Source of the DNA: Siphonodentalium dalli
Taxonomy: Eukaryota; Mollusca; Scaphopoda; Gadilida; Siphonodentaliidae
Assembly: GCA_032622095.1 (NCBI GenBank)
Contig: CP136067.1
Location: 98,694,707 to 98,758,706 of the forward strand
DNA length: 64,000 bases
Reading direction: 5' to 3'
Shown here piece by piece: positions 5,288 through 64,000 of the stretch. The position numbers and the translations under genes were made by a program. The notes below the pieces were generated by a model that was not told the DNA's origin, did not search any database, and saw only the letters and a program-made list of their open reading frames with translations. Within the stretch, counting starts at the first letter, position 1, and every line of letters starts with the position of its first letter.

Positions 5288-5353
5288 TATTTTGATATAC
5301 GCTTGGAATTGAGCTCGACTCTAATGAAAGTCGTTGGAATGCCCTTGCATCGT

Positions 5354-9644: not shown

Positions 9645-10653
9645 TTGTCATATATAACAGTAAGATATTTGTTCTACTGCTAGTCTGAAACAGTAATGTT
9701 ATCAGTTGGAAATGTTGAGGTACTAGTTGAAACGTTCCAGCACATGGCGGGAGGTGCGAACTAGTATTTCGCGAGGGGTGAAGTAGAACGTTCGTGACTG
9801 ACACTCTCCATCGGAGACCATCTAGTCACGCCCCTGTGAACATTTTCTGTTGCACGTTGGTAATCTGAGCAACAAGTCACGTGATAATCTTCCACTGGAG
9901 AGTTTGCATCTCGGTGAGTTATCGCCTTCCTTAAAAGATGGCCAGACATGCCTTCATCTATACCGGTGCATCGCATCCCTCCCACAGGGACGTAGCTAGA
10001 GGGCTGCCGTTTGGGGAAATGAGAGAAATTTCGTTTGCATCCTCCCATTTCAGTGGGATATGTCCATCTGCTCAATTTGCCATTTCTTGTATTACGCTAA
10101 TCCAAGCGAGTCGATGGAAAGCCGGCATCTGCATCGCATATGGCATAGTATATCTGATATTGCCACCTTTCAGTCAAATTTATTTTCTTTTTGGGGTCGG
10201 ATTTATACACGCGCGAACACTTTCCCTGCACGACTTCAGCTTGTGTCAAAACCTGGCATATGTAGCTCAAGCAGAACCTTATTTTTGTCCCTAATAAGTC
10301 ATGTTTTTTTATTTCTTCAAGTTTCTTGTTGTGCTATTCGAACGAAAAATAGCGACATGTGTCATTTTGACACTAGGACGTCTTATCTCGACAACAAATA
10401 CATGTACGAGTTTTGTTGCCAGAACATTTTCGTTGAACAGCAAGTTTGTGTGATCACTCGTAGCATATTAGGTCGGCTACGGACCAGGTTATAATTCAAA
10501 CTCAATTTAATTGGTATACATTCCAGTTATCGGAACATGATCAATACATTTACATAACAACACAAAAACTGACAGATGATTAAGACAAATATAGACATGT
10601 ATGTTGAACAATTATTGCTGAATAGGACACATATAATGACAAAGTAATATGGA

Positions 10654-11097
10654 TCAGGAGCTGGCTAATTCCTTACGTTTTCCGAACATGCTGAATACAT
10701 CAATTATACAAATGTTCGTAATATCCATATCATTGGAACTTAAAATGAAATGAGCTTTTTCTTCATTACCAAGTGTATGAAATTTTGGGAATATGCTACT
10801 GATATTATCCATTAATATATTACATTCATTGCTAAGGCGGTATCAGTTTGCAATCAAGTGTAATTCATCCTCCGTTCCATTGTCACATATAGGGCAGATC
10901 CTATCTGATAAATGTAATTTCTTTGATCTCCCTTTTTCAACAAACATTATGCTACCACTAATCAGTATTTTTGTAAAAGTGGCTACAATTTCACTACCTA
11001 TATCAGCAAGTAAATAGTTTTCGATTTTAAAGGACGATTCTATTTTCCTGTAGAATCTAAGTTTGTTTCCATTTGGTTTGTTTTTATCATTATACAA
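10654..11097 (-). pseudogene. Non-LTR retrotransposon C-terminal fragment, copy 1
   Basis: The minus strand reads NGNKLRFYRKIESSF early and RICPICDNGTEDELHLIAN, then a TGA, then YRLSNECNIL… to …IDVFSMFGKRKELASS. The pattern R-x-CP-x-C, then EDE-x-H and a following Cys, is the C-terminal region of many LINE reverse transcriptases. Here the codon expected for the Cys after HLIAN is TGA, a stop. No reverse transcriptase core is present upstream, so this is a 5'-truncated relic. The identical stop in the duplicate (23095-23538) shows the element was dead before the duplication. Confidence 0.7.
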
Positions 11098-11460
11098 CTC
11101 ATTGCTCCAATACTTTGAAAATCATATTTGTAAATTCTGACCAATGGCATATGCTTAATATTCGAAGAGGATTAGCGCATCCACACATGTTGAGCCCAGA
11201 TTTCTAAATATGGTCTTCATCTGTGCACATAATTGTCATCCATTTTCATGATTTTTTGAGAAGCTTTGTATACTAAAGAATGATCAGGTGACTGTAATAT
11301 GTGGTCCCCAAAAATTACACTACTTTTAATTCCTGTGATATATCCTGGGAAAAGTCCCAGTTCATCCAAACATGCCATCATACGATCTCAGAGGTTGTGT
11401 TTTCGCCTCTCTCCAAACATTAATGTTACACTTTATATACAACACATAATCGACATAATC

Positions 11461-11504
11461 GACGGTCCCATACCGTTTCATCCGTTTGACGGTCTCATAC
11501 CGTT
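11461..11504. repeat. Short palindromic direct repeat
   Basis: The 17-mer gacggtc-y-cataccgtt occurs twice 27 bp apart. Each copy is itself nearly palindromic (acggtatg…gaccgtc). It is preserved in duplicon copy 2 (23902-23945). Confidence 0.6.
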
Positions 11505-12000
11505 ATTGTGCCCATGAAAATTGTCTAAATTAAATATTAAGTCATGCCGTCAAAATTCAATAGTATATTTATCGGCGACCATATTATATACGGCAATGAT
11601 TCCATATAGTATGACTGAATCTTACTCTGCTGATATTTAATATGTATTATTAATGCGGCATTCATTATGTGTTATGTGGGTGGTTCGAATTATCATGAGT
11701 ACAGTACGTAATTCTCATTCCTGGGTTAACTTCCCGCTTTAGCAATCATTTCATTTCTTCGTCATGTTATGATTTATCGTTGATAGCAAACTATTGTATT
11801 TTGGGAAAATGTTACCTTTTCGATTGTGGGCAGTTGTTAAGACGGTTTGATTTCGGTTCGTTTGATAACCGGACAAGTTTCAATTATGCGAATACCTGCT
11901 TAGTCATTGACAATTTCCACTAAATGCGAGAGTAGAGATTCATGTCAATCATGGCATGATCCGCCGCCCGGGGTCTGACGTCATTCGACGCAGTGTTGAA

Positions 12001-12009
12001 ATTGCAGTG
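12001..12009. repeat. 9-bp target-site duplication, left
   Basis: The sequence attgcagtg is present here and again at 16741-16749, but only once (24441-24449) in the uninterrupted sister duplicon. It is the target duplication of the 4731-bp insertion. Confidence 0.9.
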
Positions 12010-12301
12010 CAAGCTGTACACAGCGCCATCTACGCTCATGCTATGATTTACCGCTGGCACCACGTAAATTATGGGAGGAATCATCACATTTTTTGGTTTG
12101 AGACTTGTGTTTGTCACAATTCATTATACACTATTCTGACAAAAAATAATGTTCATCTGCAATTGGATATTTGCCGGGTGAGATCAAATTAGTCGGAATT
12201 TGTTCGATATTGTATCGCAAAATAGTCCGCTGAAAAATCCTGCGCTGACCTTTCCCCGGAAGTAAACAAAGGCACATGTTTGAAAACACGATTTATTAAT
12301 T

Positions 12302-16740: not shown

Positions 16741-16749
16741 ATTGCAGTG
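16741..16749. repeat. 9-bp target-site duplication, right
   Basis: Second attgcagtg, matching 12001-12009. Confidence 0.9.
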
Positions 16750-17420
16750 TTGTGACTTAATATCAAAACCCTGGAACATTCACTGACACAAGAGGATACA
16801 TATACAATTAACACAAACTTCTATGTCAACCAATAGTGACAATAATAACAACGACTCAACGAGCAGCTGTTACTGTTATAATATTGACAATTCAATTGAC
16901 AGTGTTCTGAATCTGATTGTTTCAAAGCACATGCATGTACATTTACACATGTACATGTACTGTGCGCACCAGTGTAATTCACAAGAGCTTCAATGTGAAC
17001 AACAACACCGTAAACAATGAACTGACGCGCACAGTGACGGATGATCACATATCTACAAATCTAACTTTACAATTACACGGACAAATTCATCCCGTGTTCA
17101 TCAATTTTCATTGAAACGTGTGGATATGAGACATTGTCATCATTCGCCATGTTATCGTCAAGTTATTACGACAATTTACCGGGAGTACACTATTGGTTGG
17201 ATGTTCTTATCAAACTAGCTTTGGCTGACTCACTGATATTGATACTAAGTCAGTGTCGTGATACCAGTATACAGTTTGATGCATCATGCTTTAAAATTTC
17301 ATGGAAAATGTGAGACTACAGGAGAACATTGTCGCCAAGTCATCACGCACAGTTATTAAGGAATCGGCTGTTGTCTTGAAGATTCCAATCCCATCTAGCT
17401 GTTATTGATATACATTACCA

Positions 17421-17914
17421 GTCAAAAGAAGTGGTATATTAAGCGCGCTATTTTCGCGCCCAATATCGCAATAATATTGCAAGTGGAAACGCTTATAAGC
17501 ATGTCGCTTGTGATATTATTGCAATATTTTGTGCTTAATATCTCAATATTTTGCGCTTAATATTGCGACATCTTGCGCTCAAAATTGTGACATATAAATC
17601 AAATTATTGCTTCTTCTATATTGTTTATTGTATAAATAGAGACATTGTTTTAGGTATGTATATATTTATAGTTATAAATGCTATATATACACTATATGTA
17701 CATTATATGCACAGTATTTATCTAATATAAATCTAACACTATCGGGTCTGTATGAAATTTAGCGCGCTTAGTATCGCAATATTTTGCGTTCAATATTGCA
17801 ATAATAAGCGCGACAGATTTTTTGTATTGTGCTATAATCACGCCTTTTTCTAAATTAAGCACGCTCAATATCGCAATAAAGGTGCGCCTATATAAGAATA
17901 CCACTTCCTCTGAC
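17421..17914. mobile_element. MITE-like element with gcgc/aatatcgc repeats, copy 1
   Basis: The ends gtcaaaagaagtggtat and (reverse complement) gtcagaggaagtggtat form inverted repeats 494 bp apart. The interior is filled with variants of gcgcttaatattgcaataa on both strands, so each arm folds on itself. An ortholog lies at 25122-25618 in duplicon copy 2. No transposase or clear target duplication was seen. Confidence 0.6.
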
Positions 17915-18114
17915 TTGTACTGTATTGTCATGATGTATACGGATTCACCTGTTAAAACAATAACTGTGTTTACATGTGACTGGACAATTTCACGCCTTAC
18001 ATGTTACCAAAAAGTATGCCATTACTTTTACATGTACATTAATTTGAGTTTTAACTGTGAAGCTTTGTTCTTTTTATGGCTTAAAAGGGCATGCCGATTC
18101 ATGTTTTAGAATTG

Positions 18115-19118: not shown

Positions 19119-20960
19119 TTGCGAATGTCTGTATGTCTGTCTGTCTGTGTTCTATAGAAATTCACAGGGGACCACCTAGATGGCACAAAAGGGGTCTAAT
19201 ATGGGTAACTTTTTATGAGAAAGATAATGGCGAGGATTAGAATTTTCTAAAGTGGCGCCGTTGTTGTCAGGGGCAGAAAAGGGGGAGGGGCAGAACAAAA
19301 ATTTGTCGCCGATTGCCACCAAACTTATATATAATCATCCCCACAATATGAGGAATCTAATGGTGTGGTTTAAATGTGTCAAAAGTCGCGCCGTGCGCGT
19401 CAGGGATGCCCGGAAGGGAAGAGGGGCACCAAAATTGATCAAAAATAATTTTAGCGCCGAATTCCACCAAATTGATGCACATTCTTCTGAGATGTTCTCC
19501 ATAATACAAGGAATCTTATTGTGTGATTTAAAGACGCCAAATAGGTGTCGTTGGGATGAGAGATTGGGGGGGTGGGGGGTACTAAATCTGATCAGAATTG
19601 GTTTAGTCGCCGATTGCCACGAAACTTATACAAATTCATCCCCATGGTATGAGATGTCTAATGCCGTGGCTTAAAGCTGTCACAAGTGGCGTCATTCGAG
19701 TCAGGTGTGCACTGACAGGGAAAGGGGCACCAAAATTGATACACAATATTTTTAGCGCCAATTTCCACCAAATTGATACACATTCTTATCCATGATATGA
19801 GGAATCTAATCGTGTGATTTTAAAGACGTCATTATGGTGCTGCTTTGGTGAGAGATGGGGGTGGGGTGGGGTGGGCACTAAATTTGATCAAAATTTGTTT
19901 AGTCGCGGATTAGCACCAAACTCACAAATAATAATCTCCATGATATCAGGAGTCAAATTGTGTGGTTTAAAGATGTCAAAAGTGGGGCCATTCGAGTCAG
20001 GGGTGCCTAGAGGGTGTGAGGGACAATATATTTAGCGCCGATATCCACCTGATTGATACATATTCTTCTCCGTGATACGAATAATCTAATCGTGTGGTTT
20101 AAATGCGCCAAGTTGGTGCCTTTTGTGTGAGAGATATGTAATGGTGGCCCTAAATTTGATACGAATTTGTATTCTCCCCAATTTTCATAAATTTAATATA
20201 TATTCATCTCTATAATGAGTCTAAGTGTGTGGTTTAATTATGTCAAAAGTGGCGCCGCTTGAGTCCGAAATAGGGACGGTAGGGTCACCAAAATATTATA
20301 ACATATGTTTAGTGCCAAATTATTACCATCAAACTCATACACGTTCTTCTCAAATGATGCAATGAATCAAATATTTGCGAATATCTGTCTGTGTTCTATA
20401 TATAACTTTAAGGGTACAATCGAGATGGCACCAAGGCGGTCTAACAGGGATAACTTTTTACGAGTAAGATAATGGTGCGGATTAAAATTTTCTAAAGTGA
20501 AGTTGTTGGTGTCAGGGGGGGGGGGGGGCTATTTTTAGCACAGATATCGACCTAATTGATATATTATTCTTTTCCGTCATGCGAGGAATATAAACGTGTG
20601 ATTTAAAGACGCGAAACTGGTGCCGTTTGGTGAGAGATGGGAGGGGGGTAATAACTATGATAAGAATTTGTTTAGTTGCCGATTATCACCAAACTTATAT
20701 ATAATCATCTCCATTATATAATGCACGCATGAGTCTAATAGACATGGTTTAAATATGACAAAAGTGGCGCGGTTCAAGTCATGCATGAGGGGAGTTGCAA
20801 CAAAGTTGATACAAATATATTTAGCACTGATTCCACCAAATTCATGCACGTTCTTCTCTAATGATATGATGAATTAAATCACATTTGGGGTCATTTGGGT
20901 CATGGATGGCGAGAGGAGATTCACTAGCATTTATAAGATTGTTCAATTCGCCGATATACA
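19119..20960. repeat. Degenerate dimeric satellite, ~149-bp monomers
   Basis: The block ccaccaaa(ct/tt)… recurs near 19318, 19467, 19617, 19766, 19915, 20046, 20188 and 20327. Spacing is ~149 bp early and 130-145 bp later. Alternate monomers differ: one has aaacttatata…atcatcc and aagtggcgcc, the other aaattgatacacattcttc and tttaaagacgcc. A leader (tatttgcgaatgtctgt… to …ttttctaaagtgg) at 19119-19260 recurs at 20380-20510, giving a ~1.26-kb superunit. A 140-codon open frame (19252-19674) is repeat-derived. Confidence 0.85.
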
Positions 20961-21690: not shown

Positions 21691-22053
21691 ATATGATAAA
21701 CTAGATTGATTGATTGATTGATTGATTGATACATCTCTATGTGAATCACAATTGTCGTCTTTTATTTTTTCGAACTAATGTGTTTATGATGTTCATGTTC
21801 CATGCTATAACGTCTGAAGTATACGCAGTTGTAAATAAATACTTCTTTGTAGGTGGGACGGATTAAACGCAATAAACAAAATGATAATCGCTTCGACCTG
21901 ACAAGGTCTACCACTACTTATATTCGATGTGTAAGAATCATGTTTTGTGATGCCATTTGGATATACAATTTATGAGAATACGTGTAACACTTTGAGAGCA
22001 AGAGTATTCTCTATTTCCACCAAATATCCACAGAGGGTTTTACATCACTTTAA

Positions 22054-22081
22054 CCTGGGCAACACCGGGTAACCCTGCTAG
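22054..22081 (+). mobile_element. Helitron-like 3' terminus, duplicon copy 2
   Basis: Counterpart of 9617-9644. The hairpin loop has one change (gcaaca). Confidence 0.35.
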
Positions 22082-23094
22082 TTGTCATATACGTAAGTAA
22101 GATATTTGTTCTACTGCTAGTCTGAAACAGTAATGTTATCAGTTGGAAATGTTGAGGTACTAGTTGAAACGTTCCATCACATTGCGGGGAGGTGCGAACT
22201 AGTATTTCGCGAGAGGTGAAGTAGAACGTTCATGACTGACACTCCTCCCCATCGGAGACCATCTAGTCACGCCCCTGTGAACATTTTATGTTACACGTTG
22301 GTAATCTGAGCAACAAGTCACGTGATAATCTTCCACTGGAGAGTTTGCATCTCGGTGAGTTATCGCCTTCCTTAAAAGATGGCCAGACATGCCTTCATCT
22401 ATACCGGTGCATCGCATCCCTCCCACAGGGACGTAGCTAGAGGGCTGCCGTTTGGGGAAATGAGAGAAATTTCGTTTGCATCCTCCCATTTCAGTGGGAT
22501 ATGTCCATCTGCTCAAGTTGCCATTTCTTGTATTACGCTAATCCAAGCGAGTCGATGGAAAGCCGGCATCTGCATCGCATATGGCATAGTATATCTGACA
22601 TTGCCACCTTTCAGTCAAATTTATTTTCTTTTTGGGGTCGGATTTATACACGCGCGAACACTTTCCCTGCACGACTTCAGCTTGTGTCAAAACCTGGCAT
22701 ATGTAGCTCAAGCAGAACCTTATTTTTGTCCCTAATAAGTCATGTTTTTTTATTTCTTCAAGTTTCTTGTTGTGCTATTGGAACGAAAAATAGCGACATG
22801 TGTCATTTTGACACTAGGACGTCTTATCTCGACAACAAATACATGTACGAGTTTTGATGCCAGAACATTTTCGTTGAACAGCAAGTTTGTGTGATCACTC
22901 GTAGCATATTAGGTCGGCTACGGACCAGGTTATAATTCAAACTCAATTTAATTGGTATAAATTCCAGTTATCGGAACATGATCAATACATTTGCATAACA
23001 ACAAAACAACTGACAGATGATTAAGACAAATATAGACATGTATGTTGAACAATTATTGCTGAATAGGACACATATAATGACAAAGTAATATGGA

Positions 23095-23538
23095 TCAGGA
23101 GCTGGCTAATTCCTTACGTTTTCCGAACATGCTGAATACATCAATTATACAAATGTTCGTAATATCCATATCATTGGAACTTAAAATGAAATGAGCTTTT
23201 TCTTCATTACCAAGTGTATGATATTTTGGGAATATGCTACTGGTATTATCCATTAATATATTACATTCATTGCTAAGGGGGTATCAGTTTGCAATCAAGT
23301 GTAATTCATCCTCCGTTCCATTGTCACATATAGGGCAGATCCTATCTGATAAATGTCATTTCTTTTATCATCCTTTTTCAACAAACATTATGCTACCACT
23401 AATCGGTATTTTTGTAAAAGTGGCTACAATTTCACTACCTATATCAGCAAGTAAATAGTTTTCGATTATAAAGGACGATTCTATTTTCCTGTAGAATCTA
23501 AGTTTGTTTCCATTTGGTTTGTTTTTATCATTATACAA
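23095..23538 (-). pseudogene. Non-LTR retrotransposon C-terminal fragment, copy 2
   Basis: Duplicate of the LINE fragment at 10654-11097, with the same TGA after HLIAN. A small number of substitutions (for example ggggg for ggcgg just beyond the stop) separate the two. Confidence 0.65.
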
Positions 23539-25121
23539 CTCATTGCTCCAATACTTTGAAAATCATATTTGTAAGTTCTGACCAATGACATATGCTTAAT
23601 ATTCGAAGAGGATTAGCGCATCCACACATGTTGAGCCCAGATTTCTAAATATGGTGTTCATCTGTGCACATAATTGTCATCCATTTTCATGATTTTTTGA
23701 TAAGCTTTGTATACTAAAGAATGATCAGGTGATTGTAATATGTGGTCCCCAAAAATTACACTACTTTTAATTCCTGTGATATATCCTGGGAAAAGTCCCA
23801 GTTCATCCAAACATGCCATCATACGATCTCAGAGGTTGTGTTTTCGCCTCTCTCCAAACATTAATGTTACACTTTATATACAACACATAATCGACATAAT
23901 CGACGGTCCCATACCGTTTCATCAGATTGACGGTCTCATACCGTTATTGTGCCCATGAAAATTGTCTAAATTAAATATTAATTCATGCCGTCAAAATTCA
24001 ATAGTATATTTATCGGCGACCATATTATATACGGCAATGATTCCATATAGTATGACTGAATCTTACTCTGCTGATATTTAATATGTATTATTAATGCGGC
24101 ATTCATTCTGTGTTATGTGGGTCGTTCGAATTATCATGAGTACAGTACGTAATTCTCATTCCTGGGTTAACTTCCCGCTTTAGCAATCATTTCATTTCTT
24201 CGTCATTTTATGATTTATCGTTGATAGCAAACTATTGTTTTTTGGGAAAATGTTACCTTTTCGATTGTGGGCAGTTGTTAAGACGGTTTGATTTCGGTTC
24301 GTTTGATAACCGGACAAGTTTCAATTATGCGAATACCTGCTTAGTCATTGACAATTTCCACTAAATTCGAGAGTAGAGATTCGTGTCAATCATGGCATGA
24401 TCCGCCGCCCGGGGTCTGACGTCATTCGACTCAGTGTTGAAATTGCAGTGCTGTGACTTAGTATCAAAACCCTGGAACATTTACTGACACAAGAGGATAC
24501 AGATACAATTAACACAAACTTCGATGTCAACCAATAGTGACAATAATAACAACGACTCAACGAGCAGCTGTTACTGTTATAATATTGACAATTCAGTTGA
24601 CCGTGTTCTGAATCTGATTGTTTCAAAGCACATGCATGTACATTTACACATGTACATGTACTGTGCGCACCAGTGTAATTCACAAGAGCTTCAATGTGAA
24701 CAACAACACCGTAAACAATGAACTGACGCGCACAGTGACGGATGATCACATATTTACAAATCCAACTTTACAATTACACGGACAAATTCATCCCGTGTTC
24801 ATCAATTTTCATTGAAACGTGTGGATATGAGACATTGTCATCATTCGCCATGTTATCGTCAAGTTATTACGACAATTTACCGGGAGTACACTATTGGTTG
24901 GATGTTCTTATCAAACTATCTTTGGCTGACTCACTGATATTGATACTAAGTCAGTGTCGTGATACCAGTATACAGTTTGATGCATCATGCTTTAAAATTT
25001 CATGGAAAATGTGCGACTACATGAGAACATTGTCGCCAAGTCATCACGCACAGTTATTAAGGAATCGGCTCTTGTCTTGAAGATTCCAATCCCATCTAGC
25101 TGTTATTGATATACATTACCA

Positions 25122-25618
25122 GTCAAAAGAAGTGGTATATTAAGCGCGCTATTTTCGCGCCCAATATCGCAATAATATTGCAAGTGGAAACGCTTATAAG
25201 CATGTCGCTTGTGATATTATTGCAATATTTTGTGCTTAATGTCGCAATATTTTGCGCTTAATATTGCGACATCTTGCGCTCAAAATTGTGACATATAAAT
25301 CAAATTATTGCTTCTTCTATATTGTTTATTGTATAAATAGAGACATTGTTTTAGGTATGTATATAATTATAGTTATAAATGCTATATATACACTATATGT
25401 ATATTATATGCACAGTATTTATCTAATATAAATATAACACTATCGGGTCTGTATGAAATTTAGCGCGCTTAGTATCGCAATATTTTGCGTTCAATATTGC
25501 AATAATAAGCGCGACAGATTTTTGGTATTGTGCTATAAAAATCACGCCTTTTTCTAAATTAAGCACGCTCAATATCGCAATAAAGGTGCGCCTATATAAG
25601 AATACCACTTCCTCTGAC
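25122..25618. mobile_element. MITE-like gcgc element, copy 2
   Basis: Same element as 17421-17914, duplicated with the surrounding duplicon. Confidence 0.6.
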
Positions 25619-25818
25619 TTGTATTGTATTGTCATGATGTATACGGATTCACCTGTTAAAACAATAACTGTGTTTACATGTGACTGGACAATTTCACGCC
25701 TTACATGTTACCAAAAAGTATGCCATTACTTTTACATGTACATTAATTTGAGTTTTAACTGTGAAGCTTTGTTCTTGTTATGGTTTAAAAGGGCGTGCCG
25801 ATTCATGTTTTAGAATTG

Positions 25819-28024
25819 TTGGAATTAGTATTACTCATAACTGAATAGTGATGGGTTTTACTGGGTTGGCTTATCAGCTATTACTAGTATCGTTTTGTAT
25901 TTACAGCCATATGTATACATTACGCGTGCGCAGCCTTTCCCGGATTAAATTCTACGAGGCAGATAACAAGCTTGATCCTCTGTAAACTGCAAAGTTTCAT
26001 AAATATAGTCTATCACTTTATGTATTGAGGATTTACATTTCATAAAAACTATGATCGTAACAGAAGAATTAAGATGTATTTTTCAGTTTAACGGTCAAAT
26101 GTTGGCAGCGATGTTGCGCGGTCTCAGATCGTTAAACGACGGTATTTTTTCTAACAGTGCAGCCAAATTAAAATAAATAAGTTGTTTGCCTCTACCTACA
26201 TCGACGTCCTTTTGATTGTAAGGCGACGATATGTCCATCTGTATCACTTCATCAGTGATCTATTCAGGACGTGGCGGCAGGTGGAATTTGGGGGTGTCTC
26301 ACCCCCAACTTTGGGCATATTTTTCTCAAAAGTTGGATACTTCTTGCCTGACATAACATCAATTGCAACTTTAACACCAATATGTTAAATTAGTATCATT
26401 GTTGGATTTTCTAAACAGTACTTATTAGGAAATATTTTGTCTTTAGACCAGCAGCAAGATATCTGTTCCACGTTTGGTCTGAAATTGCTATCAGTTGGAA
26501 ATTGTGAGGTAGTCTGAGGAACGAGTCAAGCGCTGTTGTGCTGCGAGAGAGTTTTTGTTTTGATGAGTGATCCAAAATACACCTAATAATAATCGATTTT
26601 GATTTATTCCCAGTATCGAAATAGGCCGGTAAATACCTGAACTACCTCTACACGAGTAGAGTGTCCGATCTAAAACTGGCCACGAACAAAAACTGTGACA
26701 TTTGTATTCATCGGAATTCTGGCATCGGAAATGAAATGTTTGGAAACGATAAATTGCGTTATATTAGCATGCAACTATTAAATCACTTCAGACAAAGCTT
26801 TCGCTTTGATATATAGTCATTACAATTATGTTGTGCCATAAACTTGTCAGAGCGCCGATAGCTCTCGATTTTCTTCCTATGGTCTATACTTGCAATTTTT
26901 ACGCGACGGCTGACTAAAAACAATTGAATGGGCACAAACGAAACGATCTCAAATTTATCAAAAAATATAAAAGAAAGAACAAATATTTTCAGCGCTATGT
27001 CCACGAATTTGTTCGGAAAAAAGGGTTGGAATATTTATCTTTACATTCGGATACTATTTTCCATCACAGCAGATCAACGAGTGGCATAATTGTTTTCACT
27101 TTCGTTGAATGAGGATCATGCATGCATATTCGTCGTGGTTCTTAGTTGACATCCTATCACCGAAATCAGCGTTGCAAACGTTACATAACATCGGTCAAAT
27201 GACCACGCCTTGATATATCCATTAGTAAAATTTACCGTGATTCAACTATGGTAAGCTGCCGATTCACTATTGTACTAAACATTATGGTTCTGGTTTATAC
27301 ATTATTCATTATTTCCCTTTAAAACTAGGTTCATCTCCACACGGTTTTACAACATTCATGGTCAAACTATACTGCAGGCTAAATTAAAACCATTAGAATA
27401 TTATTATGGCCATCATGCATACTGTAGTTACTACACCATGTATGTTATAGCTATGAAATTGATTACTCTCACCTTTTTTACAAAATTACAAATAGTGATG
27501 AAGGAAATTTAATGTATGATCATACACATATAGAACACTGTTACAAAACATACAACCGGTGAATAATAAAACATGGCAACCGTATTACCATAATGAGCTA
27601 TATGGTAAAACTATAGTCGAGTATAGAAGATCTCCAGCGTGAGCAATGTTAACTACGAAAACATGGTAAAGGCATGAATCGATATTGAAATTAAATCATA
27701 ATTTAACTATGGTTAGTAGGGGATTCACTATTTATAAACATGGTTTTACCACATAAATCATGGCAATAATAATCGACGGTTTTGTTTGGCCAACCAACTG
27801 GTAACCATACTGTTCAGAGATAGAAAGGTTTTGGGAAATACGGTACTTTTAATATATCAACTGTTGTCACACGTGGGTGCCAGCAATCTATAACGATATC
27901 GAATACAGTGGAAATCCTTAAGATTATGCCATTCTATCAAAATTGTGTTTTTTTAATTAGCTATGTGATCATGATTTCTTTTTCATACATTGCATATCAG
28001 TCTACGATCATGCAAATCTTCACC
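25819..28024. other. Intergenic DNA upstream of the lectin gene
   Basis: No coding exon recognised before 28025. A repeat related to 18911-18993 lies at 26464-26571. From 27235 to 27800 the words catggtaaaac, ggttttacca and accatg recur in both orientations, giving many small hairpins. A CACGTG E-box lies about 150 bp before the start codon (near 27872). No canonical TATA box is evident. Confidence 0.4.
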
Positions 28025-28319
28025 ATGGCCTTCACCCTGTTGCATCTTCTCGGAGCGGTGGAATCAGTTGCGCAAGGATTCAAACGGATATTTGAACTGG
28101 ACGGAGTACACGGACCAGGTGCGTTTGAGACTCACTCCATGATACAGAGTCGTATTATATGCGCTGGAACTTGCGTCAGAAATGGATGCGTGAGCTTCGT
28201 CTATCATGTTGGAGAGAGGAAATGTTATCTCTACGACTGGCCGCTGACTATATCCACTATCGGCATCAGCCGCAGCACATGCCCGGGAGGCAGCGTGGCA
28301 TTTTGGACAACTCGTGATG
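28025..28319 (+). CDS. PAN/Apple-CTLD secreted protein, exon 1 (signal peptide + PAN)
   Basis: The chosen ATG (28025) sits in an ideal accATGG context and begins a signal peptide, MAFTLLHLLGAVESVAQ, at residues 1-17. The frame is open further upstream, with two or three earlier ATGs (27924 onward) that would add a hydrophobic extension and spoil the signal peptide. Residues 18-98 are a PAN/Apple domain with Cys at 46, 50, 55, 67 and 86 in the order IICAGTC…GCVSFVY…KCYLYD. These domains bind proteins or carbohydrates outside the cell. The exon ends CGTGATG|GTGAGT, a strong donor in phase 1 that joins exactly to exon 2 at 34952. The product would be secreted. Function is inferred from the domains only. 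Confidence 0.85.
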
Positions 28320-29603
28320 GTGAGTAGCAGACCGGGTTCACGCAGTCGGTGCGGCCAAATTGACCAATTTGTTTAAAATGGCCAAAGAAAATTTCATTTG
28401 GCCAAACTTTTTTGACAATAAAGGCTATAGTCAGTAATCACATATTTGATAATCATCAGATCTGAATAGAACCATTCGTCCATGCATGTATGGATAATAA
28501 TTTTATCGAAACAATGAATCAAGTCAAACTACTTTTTTCTGATTTGTGGTTTTCAATATAAGGCATTGTGAGCAAACCAGTGCTCATTTGTTATATTTAT
28601 ATATATTTGTTACCGCCTGCATTGTCATTGTTTTGTCCAAATTACAATTATCAGTTATTTCTGTACGTGTATTTTATATATAACGTTAGTCTCTGTCTTC
28701 TGAATAATCCAATATTTAGTTTCCCAATTTGGCCAAACAAACGTGATGATGATTGTAGATATAGGTGAACGCTTTTAGTCCCCACTAAATTGACTATTTT
28801 TCAAGTTCCAGCTTAGATTCTCCTCCGCCAGTATTTGGCATGAACACTTCTTGTTCGCGATTGAACATTCTAATTAACACGTTTAATGAATTTGTTGTTA
28901 CAGTTTTGTTGGTACTTGGTAGTCTATATTCAGATCATATATGGATAGGTTTTCCAACCAAGTAAAATAATTCTTATAATCGCTAATCTGCATCCTAACC
29001 TTAGAATTCTAGCAACTCTTGCGAGATACCAAGTATACATGGGGAGTCAGTAAGCGCAGTTGTACTAAAATGCCTGGGCGTTGCCAGGAACACAACCAAC
29101 ATGCCATGGCTTCGTCAGGATAATATAGATGTATTATACAAATATTAATGTAGTTTTTCACCTCTAGAAGTACTATACAGTATCCAATACATTATTTATT
29201 TATCCTTATATCTCTTGATCAAAAATGAGAAGCTGAAGCAACGAACACTTACACTGAGTCCATGCGTGTCTTCGTAAATCTGATGTAACTATTGTTGTCA
29301 CAGTTTATAATGTTCAAAATAGTCTCCACGAGTGCATCCGACTTGGTATCGGATGAAATCACTATGACATTAAATGTTTTAATCAATGGACTGGTAGGAA
29401 CCCTCGTGCACAACGCTCCCACTACTTAACTTATTTGGTATCTTCTTTTCGTATACCCTAATGTGTATTGTTCCGGGAAAATGGTGCCAAAAGCAAATAT
29501 TTGGGTCCTAGAGTACCTGCTGGTACAAAGTTTAGCCTTACTTAGTTACAATTTTTTTCCGATTATGATTGGGTGGGGGAAATAGTATCCCATATAAGTG
29601 ATG

Positions 29604-29855: not shown

Positions 29856-29918
29856 CTTTTAAGCAATGTTAACACGAAAAAAGTGCCCGTGTAGATCCGA
29901 GACCCTGTGGCCAATGGT

Positions 29919-30640
29919 GAGGTGAATATGCATACAAGGAGTGACTGTATGATCATGAATGTGGTGAATATGCCTACAAGGAGTAACTATATGATCATGA
30001 ATGTGGTGAATATGTATACAAGGAGTGACTGTATGATCATGAATGTGGTGAATATGCATACAAGGAGTGACTGTATGATCATGAATGTGGTGAATAATAC
30101 AAGGAGTGACTGTATGGTCATGGGTCAGGTGTATGAGTATACCTGGTGATCCTACGTGGCGACTCGTTGCTGTATGGTATTGTGTGTGGCGTACTGATAT
30201 ACGCAAATGTGGTTGTATGGTCATGTGTGAGTTGTGTGTGTGTATAAAGCATGTGGCTATATGACCATTGGTGAGGTGTATATGTATACCTCGATGATCA
30301 TGGGAGGGGTGTATATTTATAGCTTGAGTGGTTATATGACATGGCCACTGATGAGGTGAATGAGGTATACACGAAGTGACTGTATGACCATGAATGTGTT
30401 GAATTGATATACAGGTAGAGATTATATGGTCATGGTTCAGGTGTAGGAGTATACCTGGTGACTGGTGACACTATGGTCATGTGTGGGGTGTACGGGTATA
30501 CCTAAATGTGGTTGTATGGTCATGGGTGAGGTATTTGTGCATAAAGCGAGTGGCTATATGGTCATTTGTATTGTGTTTTTTGTATATATGGGGTGATTGT
30601 ATGGTCATATGTGGCTTGCATGGGTATACCTTGGGTTGAT
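29919..30640. repeat. 42-bp minisatellite
   Basis: The unit starts gtgaatatgcatacaaggag and runs 42 bp. It is nearly perfect at 29922, 29964, 30006 and 30048, then decays through at least a dozen more diverged units (gtatgg tcatg… ggtgta…) to about 30640. Because 42 is a multiple of three, the minus strand stays open and would encode 14-residue His-rich repeats (HIHHIHDHTVTPC). I regard this as a by-product. Confidence 0.9.
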
Positions 30641-35140: not shown

Positions 35141-36114
35141 GCGAGTCATTTATAACACAACTTTCGCCTGTTTGGAATGTAATACATATATTAATATTGT
35201 ACAAGTCGCAGGTGAGTGCATATTTGTTACACTGTAAATACATCAGACCACATACACAGAAATGATGCTCACTGTTCTACTAGTTGGCAACTCATTCATC
35301 CGCCATCATTGGCGTTGATATATCTCCATTCAGGGGCAACAGAAAGACGACCAACCATGGTCATGCTGCTATTGTACAATACTTCTCCACATTATTATTA
35401 TAGTTATGTCACTAGTTATACTACAATATAAAATCAATCAATAAAAACCGCACCAATGTATGACTTAGCAATTCAATTATTAATTTATAATGATTGGCAT
35501 ATCCTCCTTACCCACAGGGATGCCCTCGCAATAGGATCGATGCAATGAAGCTGTTAACTAATAAAATAATAAACTATTAAATAAAATATGTAGCTATTAA
35601 TACTGTCGCGGCAACTGTTTATATCCTCTGGTGGATTTGTCATTTACTGAATTCGCTAGAGCCTCGCCGAATATATAGATGTTCAAATCCCCCTCACGGG
35701 CATAAACAGTTCAGTCAGTGGGCCAATCCGGCTATTGACCCTCGAAAATGAGTTTGCTAAATATTCTGGCTGGAGCTAATTGTAATGCATCATCAGAAAG
35801 ACGATGACCTACAAATACTTTCTAACCAGGCAGGGTGCCAATTCTGAAATAGCATTGAAAGATAACATAACGGTCAAATGAAAGCCAACTTGTCAAGTCC
35901 ATAAAATGTAGTTTTCGACAGACAATGGCAATATGATGTGTATATTATGTAATGAATTAACGTTGTTGGCATCGCGGCCCTGATATTTAAATTTCTTTGT
36001 ATTTCAGAATGTTAACAATTTTAAGTTAGCACGACGGTACTATAGCTAAATACTTATTTTATACATGTATGTAAGAGCCACGTTTAATCAGGTATCAATG
36101 TTACGTTCATTTAG
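35141..36114 (+). other. Intron 2 of the lectin gene, apparently GC-AG
   Basis: A 974-bp intron starting GCGAGT and ending gttacgttcatttag. Phase 1 on both sides reconstructs PG-LLKPNNYG, colinear with the paralogue's PG-VLSYAIPG. No repeat of note was seen inside. Confidence 0.7.
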
Positions 36115-36356
36115 GTTTACTGAAGCCGAATAATTATGGGGTATTCTATGTCGATGTGATGAAGGAATCGGGAGTGTGGAAACACAGTGACGGCACAACA
36201 GCAACCGACTTGATTTGGCTGAAAACACAACCAGACGGCGATGGTGTGTGCGGGGTACTGTGGCACTTAAATTATGTTCCTCACAAGTCCTTCAAATTTG
36301 CCGACAGCTCGTGTTCACAACAACGCAAGCACATCTGCCTTTTCGGGAATGTGTAA
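36115..36356 (+). CDS. PAN/Apple-CTLD protein, exon 3 (second half of CTLD) and stop
   Basis: Residues 162-241. Landmarks are GVWKHSDGTTATDLIWLKTQ, then PDGDGVCGVLW, and SSCSQQRKHIC near the end. Expected disulphides are C134-C236 and C207-C228. The loop motif is QPD (residues 200-202), the galactose-type calcium/sugar motif, but the WND motif is replaced by FAD (223-225) and the WIGL core by VFYVDV. Calcium-dependent sugar binding is therefore uncertain. TAA at 36354 ends the protein five residues after the last Cys, as in the paralogue. The total coding length (726 nt) gives 241 residues. Immediately downstream the DNA is gacgat-rich. Confidence 0.85.
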
Positions 36357-37073: not shown

Positions 37074-37315
37074 TTAACAATTTTACAGCAATTTTATTTC
37101 GCCAAGACACCATAGATTATATTAATTAATGTTTTAGTTTAAACGGTATTTATTCTATGAACTAATACAATATGTGATATATAGCAAAAATACAAAACAA
37201 TCATGTTGTCATGGAATGGATTTGACATCAAGCATTGTGCTTATATTGGTCGTTCCGAGAACATTACAAAATACCCCATCCCGCGAGAAAGTATAACGTG
37301 AAATCTACATATTAA

Positions 37316-37662
37316 AGACATATCATGGACTTTTTCGGGTGCATGGAACTGATAAAGTAGTACGCAGGCCCTATGCCGACTGGGGGAATGTAGCATTATA
37401 CTAACATCGCCCAAAATCTCAAAGAAATCGACCATACAACTCCAAAGAAAACACGGTCTGAACTACGCTCAATTGTAAATATTTACATCTCGATTCGGGA
37501 CCCAACAATCGGCAATAAACTAATGCAAATGATATTTCGCCATCGATACCCATTGCATTTAATAAATATACAAGTGTGTATTATAAATTTGGGTTAAATA
37601 TTCATAAAAATAACTACTTTGAGCACTATTATTCTCCATTTATAATTGTGTTTCACATCACT
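37316..37662 (+). mobile_element. MITE of the TTAA-flanked family, copy 2
   Basis: Flanked by TTAA at 37312-37315 and 37663-37666. Aligned with 824-1185 along its length; see that entry for the shared landmarks. Confidence 0.8.
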
Positions 37663-37666
37663 TTAA

Positions 37667-38686
37667 CTAGTCTTCCAAAGGCAATCCGCCCCACTAGGAG
37701 GCGTTCAAGCAAAGAACGACGCGTCTAATAAACTTGCAAACAGTTAATATGGTTGTGTCTACATGTATATCTCATAACAGTTAACAAGGTTTTTAACTAT
37801 ATTTCATACCAGTGGTGCGAATGTTAGTGTTGTCGTTCCAAATCGTCGATTTTTATGATTTGGTGATAAAAAATCTGCATCAAGGAATGCATGATTACTT
37901 AATTATTGTATATTTGCAGTTCTGGTTTCACACAATATGGGATGAGAGAATTACGTCGGGCTATACATAATAATAATTGTGTATGGATTTGAGTGAATAT
38001 AATAACTGAATTAATGTTTAATTAAAGATACGAATGACCTTCGCGATGGGTATTGCTGATAAAATAGTCAATCAATCAATCAATCATTTATTGCATAAAA
38101 ACTGGCTGAAAATAATGCACGCAACGTGCAAACAGAACATATGTACATGGGTATATACAAAATAAATATTTATACGATACATTATTCCACCACGCGTATC
38201 TATATCGGGACAGAGTATATATAGTAATATTTTATCTCACGTGACTATCTAAACCTTATCCACGCTTGTGATTGGTTGATTTACATTAACTATTATCGAT
38301 AGTGTCATCCACGAAGCCATAGTGGCCCGACTAATATTAGCACACCCACTATCGCTTGTAAAATCCAGAAATATATTTTTAGCATACCCACTATTCCGGG
38401 GAGGTAATTTGAAAGTCATCTCCGACTCGCTGCAAAAGTTCAACGTGTTTTTGTCCGAAATGTCTTTGTAATCGACAACTAGAGCGTAATATAATGATTG
38501 TAAGCAAATTCTTTATATTATTTGTGATGTTTTACCCATGTTTGGTGTGGCGATTTATCATGTTCCTTTCTCCGCTGATCACAATATCGCTTCGATATTT
38601 TTGTCTATTCCCTTAGTTCGCGCTACTAAATTTTCTTAACGAATCTTCAGTTTGTTTTCGGTAAAAAACAGTATTGTTTTGAACTG
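37667..38686. other. Intergenic DNA with a (tcaa)n LINE-like tail
   Basis: At 38070-38095 the minus strand reads gcaataaatgattgattgat, a poly(A)-signal-like word followed by a (tgat)n tract, as at a LINE or SINE 3' end. No protein match was seen in the adjoining sequence. Confidence 0.4.
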
Positions 38687-41966: not shown

Positions 41967-42004
41967 TGTAACGGGAGAAGGGTGGAATGTGGGAGCCACC
42001 CCGA

Positions 42005-42085
42005 AAGTCAGCACCTCCGATCGCCGCCCGGTCACCCATCCAAGTACTAACCGGGCTCGTCGTTGCTTAACTTCGGTGATCAGAC
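42005..42085 (-). pseudogene. 5S rRNA-like segment in the 3' LTR
   Basis: On the minus strand the segment opens gtctgatcaccgaagttaag and later has ggttagtacttggatgggtg followed by accg, then ggtgctg…actttc. These match the 3' two-thirds of invertebrate 5S rRNA, including the internal control region: box A (aagttaagca), intermediate element and box C (ggttagtacttggatggg). The 5' third of 5S is absent, so it is not a functional ribosomal gene. Confidence 0.85.
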
Positions 42086-42097
42086 AAGGCGTCTTAA

Positions 42098-42108
42098 CCA
42101 CTGGACCA
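42098..42108 (-). promoter_or_regulatory. tRNA-type A box upstream of the 5S-like segment
   Basis: tggtccagtgg on the minus strand fits the RNA polymerase III A-box consensus TRGYNNARNNG and the context tggttaagac of tRNA genes. It lies about 13 bp upstream of the 5S-like block. The other LTR has a one-base variant (ttgtccagtgg). Confidence 0.6.
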
Positions 42109-42173
42109 AAGAAGCATGCTCCGTTGGAGCTGTAGATTAATCGGCCTTCTATATTTACAACGCGCCCGCTACA

Positions 42174-42187
42174 TTCCTCCCTTCCTC
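42174..42187 (-). other. Polypurine tract of the TRIM
   Basis: Fourteen purines (gaggaagggaggaa) end exactly at the start of the 3' LTR. This is the plus-strand primer site of LTR retrotransposons. Confidence 0.85.
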
Positions 42188-42266
42188 GTTTTGATGTTCA
42201 CCACCAAGTGAACCTCATCCAAGTTTCTCTCTCAGAGCGGTCGCAACATAGACACAGGCCTCTGAG

Positions 42267-42284
42267 ATCCCGGACGAGCCCCCA
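42267..42284 (-). other. tRNA-Pro primer binding site
   Basis: TGGGGGCTCGTCCGGGAT, one base after the 5' LTR, is complementary to the 3' terminal 18 nt of tRNA-Pro including CCA. The same site is used by murine leukaemia-type retroviruses. Confidence 0.9.
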
Positions 42285-42285
42285 G

Positions 42286-42486
42286 TGTAACGGGAGAAGG
42301 GTGGAATGTGGGAGCCACCCCGAAAGTCAGCACCTCCTATCGCCGCCCGGTCACCCATCCAAGTACCAACCGACGTTGCTTAAGTTCGGTGATCAGACAA
42401 GGCGTCTTAACCACTGGACAAAAGAAGCATGCTCCGTTGGAGCTGTAGATTAATCGGCCTTCTATATTTACAACGCGACCGCTACA
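42286..42486 (-). repeat. 5' LTR of the TRIM
   Basis: 201-bp LTR. It contains the second 5S-like segment (42323-42398), in which a short block between the intermediate element and box C (ggctcgt on the plus strand) is deleted. Confidence 0.85.
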
Positions 42487-54072: not shown

Positions 54073-54326
54073 TTAGTAAACAATGTATGAACATATGTGA
54101 CGTTCCTTTTCCACTGTTGTACATTGCCAATCCCCGAGTTTGAAGTCCGTGCCCACCCGAAGAAAGAACACAGCACAGTCGTCCACAGCTCTGTTGCCTT
54201 TGGGCTGATCGGCGTGCCAAACAAGACCAGTAGGCACAGAGCCGTCAACATTTTTCCAGACGCCCTCTACCTCAGCATCTGTCAATCCAACCCAATAGCG
54301 ACCCGGAATGGCATAGCTCAGCACAC
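54073..54326 (-). CDS. CTLD protein paralogue, last exon (second half of CTLD)
   Basis: After an acceptor ending atccattttag the phase-1 frame reads GVLSYAIPGRYWVGLTDAEV, EGVWKNVDGSVPTGLVWHAD, and ends QCTTVEKERHICSYIVY. It keeps the WVGL core and four CTLD cysteines. The sugar-binding loop is QPK instead of QPD/EPN, and WND is LGD, so calcium-dependent sugar binding is doubtful. It is homologous to 36115-36356 with the same splice phase and a similar C-terminus. Confidence 0.85.
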
Positions 54327-54857
54327 CTAAAATGGATGACATGGCAATTTGTTCGTACTTTAAACAAGATCTGAAATATATATTGTATATTATATATATA
54401 TACTCATTTGACTATAATGTTGCTGCCAATATTCCAAAACTGTCCTATCGGCGGGGATAATCGAACCATTGTTTCATTCATAGTCATTGGCCTAGTTAAA
54501 AGACACCACCATCATGTAGTCACTATCGTTCCATAGGAGTTTAACTTGCCAATTCTTTAATTTGTTTGCACTCCGACCCATGTTGCAGCCTCAAAACACT
54601 TCATATCTTATTGAGAACTGCTATGTACAGTTTGCATTAGTGTTCAACGCTGTCTCAAATATTATACATGTATTATCTAGTCATCACATGCAATCTAATC
54701 TAATATAATTATTTTACAATTAGCATACATACAAACTACCGAAGACAAGTACGTGATTCGCACATACCGTCGAGACAATCCATTAACATATAGTTAAACG
54801 TTCACGTACATGTATGTTCCAAAAGTATTCAATCGATAGGATTCAAATCGAAAACTA

Positions 54858-55745
54858 CAACATGTTATGTCATAAATATAAATAAAAACAGTCCTGCATG
54901 TTGACGGAAGTAAAATGCGGTTCATGGTTTCACGCGCAAACATTGGTCACGTGGTGTCATGTAAATTTGTCATGGCAGTCAGACACACGATCTTTATTGG
55001 CACCATAGCCAGGAAAATTCTAACAAGTGTAACGCCCTTATTGCCTAGGCACACGAACTGTCATGTAGTCCTCATGGAAGTACTGGACGCATTTACTGAC
55101 TTAATATGTTGGTATAATAAGTTATATATGCCCAAGTCACAAGTATAGATCCCAAGTCAACCAGTTGTCAACATTATGTAATATACGACACAAAACCCCT
55201 GCCAACTGTGACTATATAGATGGCCTAAATGAAGATATATTCGCCGTTTGTATTGTATATATCAGCTAGTTGTTTGTATTGTTTTGCTTGGAACTGTACT
55301 CTTGATTGGCGTCATAGTATTTATTGCGCATGTACTGGCGGATGTTTACATTGTGTGTTTATATTATTTGTTATGGTTGGGTGATTGGTCTCTTGTCTGG
55401 AGCATTTTCCATTAGATCGATGTGGTTCAGATAAAAAACAACGACATATTATGTCATAAATATAAATAAAACAGTCCGGCATGTTAACGGAAGTAAATTG
55501 CGGTTCATGGTTTCACGCGCAAACATTGGTCACGTGGTGCCAGGCAAATTTTTCATGGCAGTCAGACACACGATCTATATTGGCACCACAGCCAGGACAA
55601 TTCTAACAATTATAACGCCATTATTGATCTATATCGAGCACATTTAAAACAAATTATATTATTTCAATAAGATTTTGCCCAGGAACGTGAACTGCCATGT
55701 AGTCCCCTTGAAAGTACTGAACGCATTTTACTTAATATGTTGGTC
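54858..55745. repeat. Direct duplication of ~280-310 bp within the intron
   Basis: The run atgtcataaatataaataaa…cggttcatggtttcacgcgc…gcagtcagacacacgatct…ttaatatgttggt occurs at 54868-55114 and again at 55452-55743. The second copy has a ~70-bp insertion (from gatctatatcgagc onwards) before the common …gaactg(t/c)catgtagtcc segment. Confidence 0.85.
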
Positions 55746-55778
55746 GCAGAATGCGAGACAAATCAGAATAACTATTAG

Positions 55779-56146
55779 AGACATATTATGTACTTGTTCG
55801 GGTGCGTGAAACTGATAAGTTAGTATTCAGGCGCTATGACAACTGGAGGAATGTAACATTATACTAACATCGTCGAAAATTTGAAGCAAATCGACGGTGC
55901 CATTCCATAGAAAACATAGTCAGAACTACGCTCAATTGTAAATATTTACTACTCGATTCGGGACGCATCTATCGGCAACGAACTAACGAAAAAGATTTCG
56001 CCAACGAGAGTCACTGCATTTAATTCATATACAAGAATGGCGATGTGTTGTCAATTTGAATAAACTATTTGTAAAACTTACTATACATTGAACAAGATAA
56101 TTCTCCATTTATATTTGATCACCATACCAGAGTGTTTCACGTCACT
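55779..56146 (+). mobile_element. MITE of the TTAA-flanked family, copy 3
   Basis: TTAG (a decayed TTAA) at 55775-55778 and TTAA at 56147-56150 flank it. Same family as 824-1185. Confidence 0.75.
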
Positions 56147-56278
56147 TTAAGTTAAAATATTGGCCTCGAACCGCACTGTTTCGTTATCTGGGCGGCTGGA
56201 GGTAATGAGTTCCTTCAGTTTTGTGGAGAATTAAATTATTTTTCTTTCTTCTAACTACTACAAAATATATTAATGTAC

Positions 56279-61341: not shown

Positions 61342-63041
61342 ATAGTATATCATGGAATATAATACTAGTGGTGGCATCATTAGTGTTCTTTGATACAACT
61401 GTTCCATTTGCTATAAAACAAAATTGCCTTCGCAAAGTGACTGGAAGGTGAGTAACAATATGACTCAGATGGCAGGCGCATTAGATTTTTAAGGGAAACC
61501 ACACCCTGTAATCGACTTCCGACAGTCTGGAGGATAAACTCAGTTCGGAGAACAAGTATCAACATTGAATTATGCCATCTGATTATAATCGCTATTTTTT
61601 GTCATCAAAAGTTCCTGTCCCGCGAATGACGCTTACAGTGTCGATCAGGCATGGATTCGAAGACACAACAGCCATTCTACTTCTAATTATTATCTATGTT
61701 TTCTTTTAGGTTAACCATTATTATGATCGTGACGTCGGCGTGTTTTAACAAATTTCCAGTTTAGTGAATATCATAGGAAATATTTCGAGCAAATTAGCTC
61801 AACTGATTGATATTTCTGTAATATAACATTTATATTAAATACGTTGGAAAGAATGCACAGATCTGCAACCGCGCGTGTATAGTTAACTTACATGTACGTT
61901 CGGATTTTATCGACCAGCTGCGAACATTTATGACAAAATAGTACGGAGCAATATTTTTCCAAGCTGACAGTCCGTACGGCGTAGAGATAACGTTCTTTCG
62001 GATATGAATTTCCAATAAATCCTGGCAAAATACAAGATCGCGTGTTTATAAAGAGTTGCAAGTTGCCAAATATCACCAGAAAGTTCTGATATTAATATGA
62101 AAATATCATGTTGTCCATAAAAAAGGTCGATATATCGCGTGTCATATGTGTCAAATATAACCAAAAATGTCACGTTCATTTGGCAATGCATCCGTAAAAC
62201 CTCTATTTATCTGTGTCACTGTTGTATAACTGCATGATGTGGACCACAAAGTACAAGCGGTTCGTGGCAGTGTACCTTCGTCTATTATTCGATGTAGACT
62301 ACTCACATGGATTGACGTGTCGCAGGGGATGGGGTTGGGCATACAGCACTCAAATGTTGGCCAATAGTTTCAATAGATGGAAATAATTATTGTTTCATGC
62401 CTACCACAATATTACCTGGGAATATGAAAACAAAGTTGTGTTGAATTTGGCATGATAGTTTGATATCACAGCCAGTATATTTATAGTGCAATTCCTACTT
62501 TTGCCGACTTTCTTTTATCAGTTGGGAAATTTCCAAACATATATAGGGATGATATCAGTTTGGAAATTTGCAACAGTTGGAAACCTTGAGGTGCCAGTTA
62601 GAAATTTCCAACCCAAGTGCGATAGTGTGCAAATGGAATTTCAAAGACTTGGATATTGGGCATGGTTCAACGGCTGACATAAGCTTCGTGCTTTCTGTCA
62701 AATCCCATTTTCTAATGTGTTTCTCTTTATGTTACAGGCCTATATACTATACAATTTATGTTCATTGATGATACGATACGATTTACTTGCATGACCGCCA
62801 AAAAAGGCAGTATGCTAACAAAACAATACAATTCATATATAATAAAACAAAACTTATCAAATAAATACACGTGAACATGACATGTGTAGCCATGTATACA
62901 TGTATTTTTATTGTGTGATACATGTATGTTTATTGTGTGATGGCACGCATAATATTTATTCAAAACGGTTATCAAAGAAGAGCCGGACCACGTTGGGCAA
63001 TTTACAGAAACTGAAATCTTGTTTTCGCAAAGCATAGTTAA
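61342..63041. other. Intergenic DNA
   Basis: No gene recognised. At 62515-62615 the words ttggaaatttgcaac and gttagaaatttccaac form short inverted repeats. Confidence 0.4.
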
Positions 63042-63411
63042 AGTGGTGTGAAACACTCCGGTTGGGTGATCAAATAGAAATTGATAATTATCTTGCTCAA
63101 AGTAGTTATTTGTTACCCAATATCAATACAAATTGACGATACACATTATCATTCTTATATATTAATTAAATGCAATGGCTCTCGATGGCGAAATCATTTG
63201 TGTTAGATTATCGCATATAGTTGCGTCCCGGATCGAGATGTAAAGATTTACAATTGGGCGCAGTTCCGACGATGTTTTCTATGGAGTGGTATGGTTGATT
63301 TCTTTGAAATTTTGGCGATGTTAGTAGAATGCTATACATTCCCCATATTGGCATAGCGCCTGAGTACTAACTTATAAATTTCACGCAACCGAACAAGTCC
63401 ATAATATGTCT
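63042..63411 (-). mobile_element. MITE of the TTAA-flanked family, copy 4 (inverted)
   Basis: Flanked by TTAA at 63038-63041 and 63412-63415. It is the reverse complement of the other three copies (starts agtggtgtgaaacactccgg). Confidence 0.8.
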
Positions 63412-64000
63412 TTAATACGTACCGCAACACTTATCATATACTTTTGCGTTTTGAACATAAAACCCCTGTCACACTCCGCTGCGATCAGGCTGGCGCGTGC
63501 ATTGCGCTGAAAAATTATCAAAGCGCCAAGCTAAACGCATTGGTGACGCAGTTGACACTGGTTAGGGCGGGAGACGGCCCCATATTCGCCCATGAGTGCC
63601 AGAGCGTCGCGCTTGTGCATCCACAAAACAAGCGCAGAGGTTCGGCGTTCTGACCAGGGCGCAGTACTGTTGCCGTGGCAGCGAAAAGCCAGCGACGTGA
63701 GCGTCCCGTTGACGTAGCAAGGATGCATACAAGCTACTCGTTGTCGCAGTAAGAAACCAATCTTTTCCTCTGCGACTGCGGTAAGCTTAAAACCCCTCCG
63801 CTTAAAAACACTCCGCTGCGATCAGGTCGGAGCTTGCATTGCCCTGAACAAGCTTATCACGTTTTATTGCGCTCTTATTACGACCCATTGCGTTTCTACT
63901 TTGTCAAGTCTCACGCTCTCACGCGCTCTCACTGTGCTTCCTCTGAGCTGTAAATGTCCTTAGTGCGTCCAAGTCGCTGTCGCTGTGTTGCTAGTATGTT
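63412..64000. repeat. GC-rich end region with a ~336-bp repeated word
   Basis: The phrase acactccgctgcgatcagg occurs at 63474 and 63810, followed in both by cgg/tgg and gcttgcattgc or gcgtgcattgc. This suggests a tandem or dispersed repeat running off the window. A 69-codon frame (63444-63653) lies across it and is not recognised. Confidence 0.5.

Follow-up and report, generated by a model that had tools for sequence, protein, structure and literature searches.

A TRIM with a probable 5S rRNA-derived promoter in its LTRs in the scaphopod Siphonodentalium dalli

Structure of the element and its surroundings

The window analyzed here, i.e., the whole 64-kb stretch of Siphonodentalium dalli DNA, contains a 520-bp LTR element at 41967-42486, exactly the span given in the original prediction, which named no strand; the element and all of its features described below lie on the minus strand. 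Pairwise comparison bears out the two LTRs that had been claimed for it: a 5' LTR of 201 bp (42286-42486) and a 3' LTR of 207 bp (41967-42173), both of which have TG...CA ends (TGTAGCGG...CCGTTACA). The two LTRs differ by six substitutions and one 6-nt gap, so this copy of the element is not young. Between them lies an internal domain of 112 bp (42285-42174), the length that had been predicted. At the second position of this domain, one base past the 5' LTR, begins an 18-nt primer binding site (PBS), TGGGGGCTCGTCCGGGAT (42284-42267), which would pair with the 3' end of tRNA-Pro and is therefore called tRNA-Pro type here. The length of the PBS agrees with that first described, and even the first 12 of its bases are unique within the 64-kb window, both strands included. 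At the other end of the internal domain, a 14-nt polypurine tract (PPT), GAGGAAGGGAGGAA (42187-42174), adjoins the 3' LTR, again as claimed. The internal domain also holds two short inverted repeats, one formed by 42266-42260 and 42237-42231 and the other by 42213-42208 and 42201-42196. The RNA fold of the internal domain is no better than that of shuffled sequences (z = -0.53, with 57 of 200 shuffles as good), and a pronounced RNA fold of the LTR was considered and rejected (z = -1.57, with 13 of 200 shuffles as good).

The interior of the element had been described as free of genes, and the three open reading frames (ORFs) of at least 65 aa that cross the element indeed match no Pfam family at E ≤ 0.1. 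Among 24 different ORFs of the window, which were scanned against Pfam in sets of 8, 10, 5 and 3 with two ORFs scanned twice (the first set to E 0.001 and the others to E 0.1), no match to a reverse transcriptase or an integrase was found. The matches that were found in the window are a PAN domain in the exon-like ORF at 27824-28327 (plus strand; E = 0.00017, with 21.8 bits where 21.4 are required), weak C-type lectin matches in exon-like single ORFs at 36075-36353 (plus strand; E = 0.0078) and 54073-54411 (minus strand; E = 0.00027), both below the Pfam cut-off, and a Vps3844_C match that is far below the cut-off (E = 0.082). Of these, the lectin and PAN matches point to animal DNA. One protein of the window was also sought in viral contigs, where it has no relative.

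The element shows the features by which TRIMs are recognized, including two direct LTRs, a total length (520 bp) of less than 1000 bp, no coding capacity, a PBS after the 5' LTR and a PPT before the 3' LTR, except that this one old copy has no target-site duplication of 4-5 bp. The sequences that abut the element are ATGAA and TGTAT and form no 5-bp target duplication. The flanks contain an imperfect 9-bp repeat, GTACATGAA and GTATATGAA, with one extra T and an offset of 0-1, which is found at 1 of 9053 sampled placements. Given that this test was chosen post hoc and that the place of the repeat is unfit for a 5-bp target duplication, it is not counted as one. An exact 5-mer within 10 nt is found at 62 of the 9053 sampled placements. 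Neither a second copy of the element nor further LTR sequence is found elsewhere in the 64-kb window.

Other repeats are found in the window. Recent segmental duplications with 97-99% identity pair 9246-12010 with 21691-24451, 16741-18114 with 24442-25818 and 5350-5709 with 8887-9246. A repeat of ~350-390 bp is present in four copies that are 75-80% alike (824-1171, 37306-37669 and 55773-56150 on the plus strand and 63035-63421 on the minus strand); some of their ends resemble TTAAAG...CTTTAA, and the repeat is perhaps a MITE. A 212-bp direct repeat with 89% identity (54832-55043 and 55416-55626) has no evident TG...CA ends. Tandem or local repeats are also found at 2337-3580, 19302-20880 and 29859-30570, and a repetitive, His-rich-looking ORF is found at 29859-30470.

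The 5S-derived block and the promoter signals of the LTRs

Each LTR had been predicted to carry the 3' two-thirds of a 5S rRNA in sense orientation. The reference used for evaluating this prediction is the 5S at L001:1441-1323 of the 5.6-kb contig JAOZOU010000036.1 (L001:1-5648), which is recognized by Rfam at 114 bits. JAOZOU010000036.1 is filed as part of a bacterial MAG and carries U1, U2, 5S and histone stem-loops; consequently, it is eukaryotic contamination. No direct repeat of at least 25 nt in this contig overlaps its 5S, which is therefore not an LTR copy. L001 is the only locus that a loose search pattern matched in a collection of prokaryotic genome contigs, in which the exact pattern had no match, and three patterns, from exact to loose, had no match in a collection of viral contigs. 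As the collections searched are viral and prokaryotic, these misses say little about animals.

A 5S piece is present in both LTRs, and its clear homology is confined to 5S nt 34-93 instead of the two-thirds predicted. In the 3' LTR, this promoter core (42029-42088) is ungapped and identical to the L001 5S at 53 of 60 positions. Its score is 85, and the highest score among 5000 dinucleotide shuffles is 29, with either strand considered. The opposite strand of the 3' LTR scores only 15, in agreement with the sense orientation claimed. In the 5' LTR, the core (42348-42401) is 6 nt shorter, with the loss located between boxes A and C, and scores 63 against the L001 5S; this alignment has one 6-nt gap and is identical at 48 of 54 positions. 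Human 5S identifies the same ungapped 60-nt core, with scores of 70 in the 3' LTR and 48 in the 5' LTR; no other piece of the window that was compared exceeds 24, and 30 is the highest score among 2000 shuffles. The intermediate element (IE) lies inside the aligned core.

Past 5S nt 93, the match to the L001 5S is not significant, as its local score is reached by 1961 of 2000 shuffles and its global score by 3232 of 5000, while a faint similarity to human 5S is marginal, with 257 of 5000 shuffles as good. Before 5S nt 34, no homology is detectable, with 859 of 2000, 4246 of 5000 and 4864 of 5000 shuffles as good in the respective comparisons. A looser local alignment reaches both ends of the 5S with a score of 118 (best of 2000 shuffles, 77), and it is the core that carries this score. 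Rfam finds no 5S in the element even at E ≤ 1, whereas the control L001 5S is found at 114 bits, and a functional 5S rRNA gene is therefore rejected. Because the block is invisible to Rfam and its homology is limited to nt 34-93, the piece that is clearly kept is the promoter and not the RNA. The promoter part of the 5S, and only that part, is present in sense in both LTRs.

The three substitutions that distinguish the two LTRs within the core bear on the history of the block. At two of them, the 3' LTR retains the letter of the L001 5S, while the third depends on how the gap is placed, as one placement gives the L001 letter to the 5' LTR and the other gives it to the 3' LTR. The 6 nt missing from the core of the 5' LTR are also retained in the 3' LTR. 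These results suggest that the element already had the 5S block in both of its LTRs when it inserted, and that the block later decayed in the 5' LTR.

The promoter boxes were sought with the motifs of plant Cassandra elements, box A RGTTAAGYRHGY and, 18 nt further, box C RRRATRGGTRACY, as given in PMC7215508. In the 3' LTR, a box A-like sequence, AGTTAAGCAACG (42061-42072), is followed at exactly the same 18-nt spacing by a box C-like sequence, TGGATGGGTGACC (42030-42042), with three mismatches in 25 positions. This is the best pair of boxes in the window; elsewhere, on either strand and at spacings of 15-25 nt, any such pair has at least five mismatches. In the 5' LTR, the box A-like sequence, ACTTAAGCAACG (42374-42385), differs from that of the 3' LTR at its second base, and the box C-like sequence, TGGATGGGTGACC (42349-42361), follows after 12 nt instead of 18 nt, with four mismatches to the Cassandra motifs in all.

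Upstream of the boxes, both LTRs contain a TATA-like sequence, TAAATATA, at LTR positions 17-24 (42463-42470 in the 5' LTR and 42157-42150 in the 3' LTR), which is about -36 to -29 relative to the transcription start proposed below. In sense orientation, the element has TTTT at one place only, 42420-42423 in the 5' LTR (LTR positions 64-67), about +12 to +15 of the putative transcript, and its counterpart in the 3' LTR is only TTT (42110-42108). The 100 nt on either side of the element have no TTTT in this orientation either. The last 453 nt lack such a run, as do 354 of 2000 shuffles and 128 of 2542 pieces of the window, and in view of the shuffles we attach no significance to its absence. 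In sense orientation, the element contains neither AATAAA nor ATTAAA. ARAGORN identifies no tRNA in the window. A composite promoter of tRNA and 5S type was also considered: immediately upstream of the 5S core lies TGGTCCAGTGG, which resembles an A box, but 145 of 1000 shuffles contain a site as good, for which the composite was rejected, and the best B box after it has three mismatches.

Proposed mode of propagation and competing explanations

The LTR-PBS-internal domain-PPT-LTR order and the presence of 5S nt 34-93, in sense, in each of the LTRs can be read directly from the DNA. We propose, with a probability of roughly 0.7, that the element is a non-autonomous, gene-free TRIM whose LTRs contain the captured internal promoter part of a 5S gene, i.e., a TRIMp3 of the Ajax and Cassandra design. 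LTR elements are normally driven by Pol II. The captured Pol III type-1 promoter would instead drive this element: the two boxes of the 5' LTR would be bound by the 5S transcription factors, and Pol III would start roughly 50 nt ahead of box A, close to LTR position 53 and about 30 nt after the TATA-like sequence. The RNA would then traverse the internal part, enter the 3' LTR and end a little past the same start, which would leave a short terminal redundancy (R) that may serve strand transfer. Termination at the T run of the 3' LTR would yield a terminal repeat of ~15 nt, a length similar to the 18 bp quoted for Cassandra in PMC10886601. This T run is a weak point of the proposal, as the 3' LTR has only TTT and the TTTT of the 5' LTR would need to be read through. 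Further points that speak against the proposal are the single copy in the window, the missing abutting target duplication, the lack of a reverse transcriptase or integrase match among the 24 ORFs scanned and the failure of Rfam to recognize the 5S fold.

The anatomy of the PBS and PPT suggests that the first strand would be primed by tRNA-Pro and the second by the purine tract, and that an autonomous LTR element would supply reverse transcriptase and integrase in trans. The helper is plausibly a Gypsy element, since the PBS regions of animal Helenus elements are reported to match only Gypsy elements, one of which is a user of tRNA-Pro (PMC10886601). As for the copy described here, the promoter of its 5' LTR is probably silent, judging from the 6 nt lost between the boxes and the changed base of box A.

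Some of these features would also fit an ordinary TRIM that is transcribed by Pol II from TAAATATA and whose ancestral LTR had received a SINE3 or a 5S pseudogene as a passenger, which was then copied to both LTRs. The TATA-like sequence is indeed present in both LTRs, the 3' LTR has no T4 terminator, and the outer parts of the 5S are gone or unrecognizable. However, the piece retained is the promoter part, in which boxes A and C are 18 nt apart as they are in Cassandra, the element contains no AATAAA or ATTAAA, and the same part of the 5S is kept in Ajax (PMC10886601). We therefore regard a Pol II-driven TRIM with a passenger 5S as unlikely.

Far less probable are two explanations in which the locus is not a single insertion of an LTR element. 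The single copy in the window, the lack of an abutting 5-bp target duplication and the presence of other recent segmental duplications within the window would be in keeping with an immobile locus that arose by local duplication of a segment with a 5S pseudogene or SINE3. For such a duplication, the TG...CA ends, the PBS at the second base and the abutting purine tract, all of which are what an LTR element requires, would have to be coincidences, and we consider it very improbable. The missing target duplication would similarly suit a remnant of a tandem array of LTRs and internal parts, and such arrays are reported for Cassandra (PMC7215508) and biv-TRIM (PMC6934838). The locus, however, has just two LTRs around a single internal part, and neither its flanks nor the rest of the window contain additional LTR sequence, which leaves an array remnant only a slight chance. 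The interpretation as a TRIM with a captured 5S promoter is thus the one that we prefer.

Significance and relation to known elements

We conclude that the element is a genuine TRIM whose LTRs carry a promoter derived from 5S, a design that was published for animals in 2024 (Ajax). Plants were the first group for which it was established, with Cassandra, and animals followed with Ajax; a case primed by tRNA-Pro would suggest either repeated origins or a change of helper. In this context, we tentatively suggest, with somewhat less than even odds, that the element represents a second, independently arisen lineage of animal TRIMs with 5S promoters, outside the two nemerteans in which Ajax is found, and that its tRNA-Pro primer points to an autonomous partner other than that of Ajax. 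If this lineage is independent, the capture of Pol III type-1 promoters by LTR elements would be recurrent in animals. It would also mean that the captured promoter has been trimmed to the stretch between and including the two boxes and has lost the 5S terminator, such that the RNA can reach the second LTR. An LTR element with a 5S promoter offers a compact test of the reverse transcription and integration in trans of Pol III transcripts, and the scattered 5S-like pieces of such elements can confuse counts of 5S genes.

SINEs, unlike the element, are not known to have LTRs, a PBS or a PPT. With SINE3, the element shares a Pol III promoter derived from 5S, according to PMC10886601. The same paper describes Helenus elements of fungi, animals and plants, which resemble the element in their TRIM anatomy and in having a Pol III promoter in the LTR, and some bivalve families of Helenus also use tRNA-Pro primers. 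The promoter of Helenus is of the tRNA type with A and B boxes, while no tRNA-like sequence is recognized in the LTR here. biv-TRIM of bivalves, with repeats of 202-218 bp, is likewise an animal TRIM with internal inverted repeats; it is described as having an internal part of 77-80 bp, a 7-bp PPT and no clear PBS, in contrast to the 112-bp internal domain, the 14-nt PPT and the PBS of the element (PMC6934838, from which the term "5S rRNA" is absent).

Cassandra of plants was reportedly described by Kalendar et al. in 2008. The original prediction called the element Cassandra-like, which holds for the TRIM anatomy, the 5S-type promoter and the proposed working mode and does not hold for the PBS, as the Cassandra PBS, TGGTATCAGAGC, is absent from the PBS position, where TGGGGGCTCGTCCGGGAT is found instead (PMC7215508). 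As in Cassandra (PMC7215508; PMC10853983), 5S-type boxes A and C are in sense in both LTRs, and in the 3' LTR they are 18 nt apart and deviate from the published boxes by three mismatches. With 520 bp, the element is shorter than Cassandra, which is known from plants and is listed with 565-860 bp in PMC10886601, where Cassandra, Helenus and Ajax are grouped as TRIMp3.

In the literature searched, mostly outside subscription journals, Ajax is the only animal TRIM found to have 5S sequence in its LTRs. Ajax comprises TRIMs of 421 and 434 bp from the nemerteans Notospermus geniculatus and Lineus longissimus, which have a tRNA-Leu PBS and 5-bp target duplications (Kojima, 2024; PMC10886601). By that published description, the element differs from Ajax in its length of 520 bp, in its PBS of tRNA-Pro type and in having no abutting target duplication. 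It agrees with Ajax in being an animal TRIM of several hundred bp with a PBS and a PPT, whose LTRs have lost the 5S structure and kept only the 5S promoter region, i.e., box A, IE and box C (PMC10886601).
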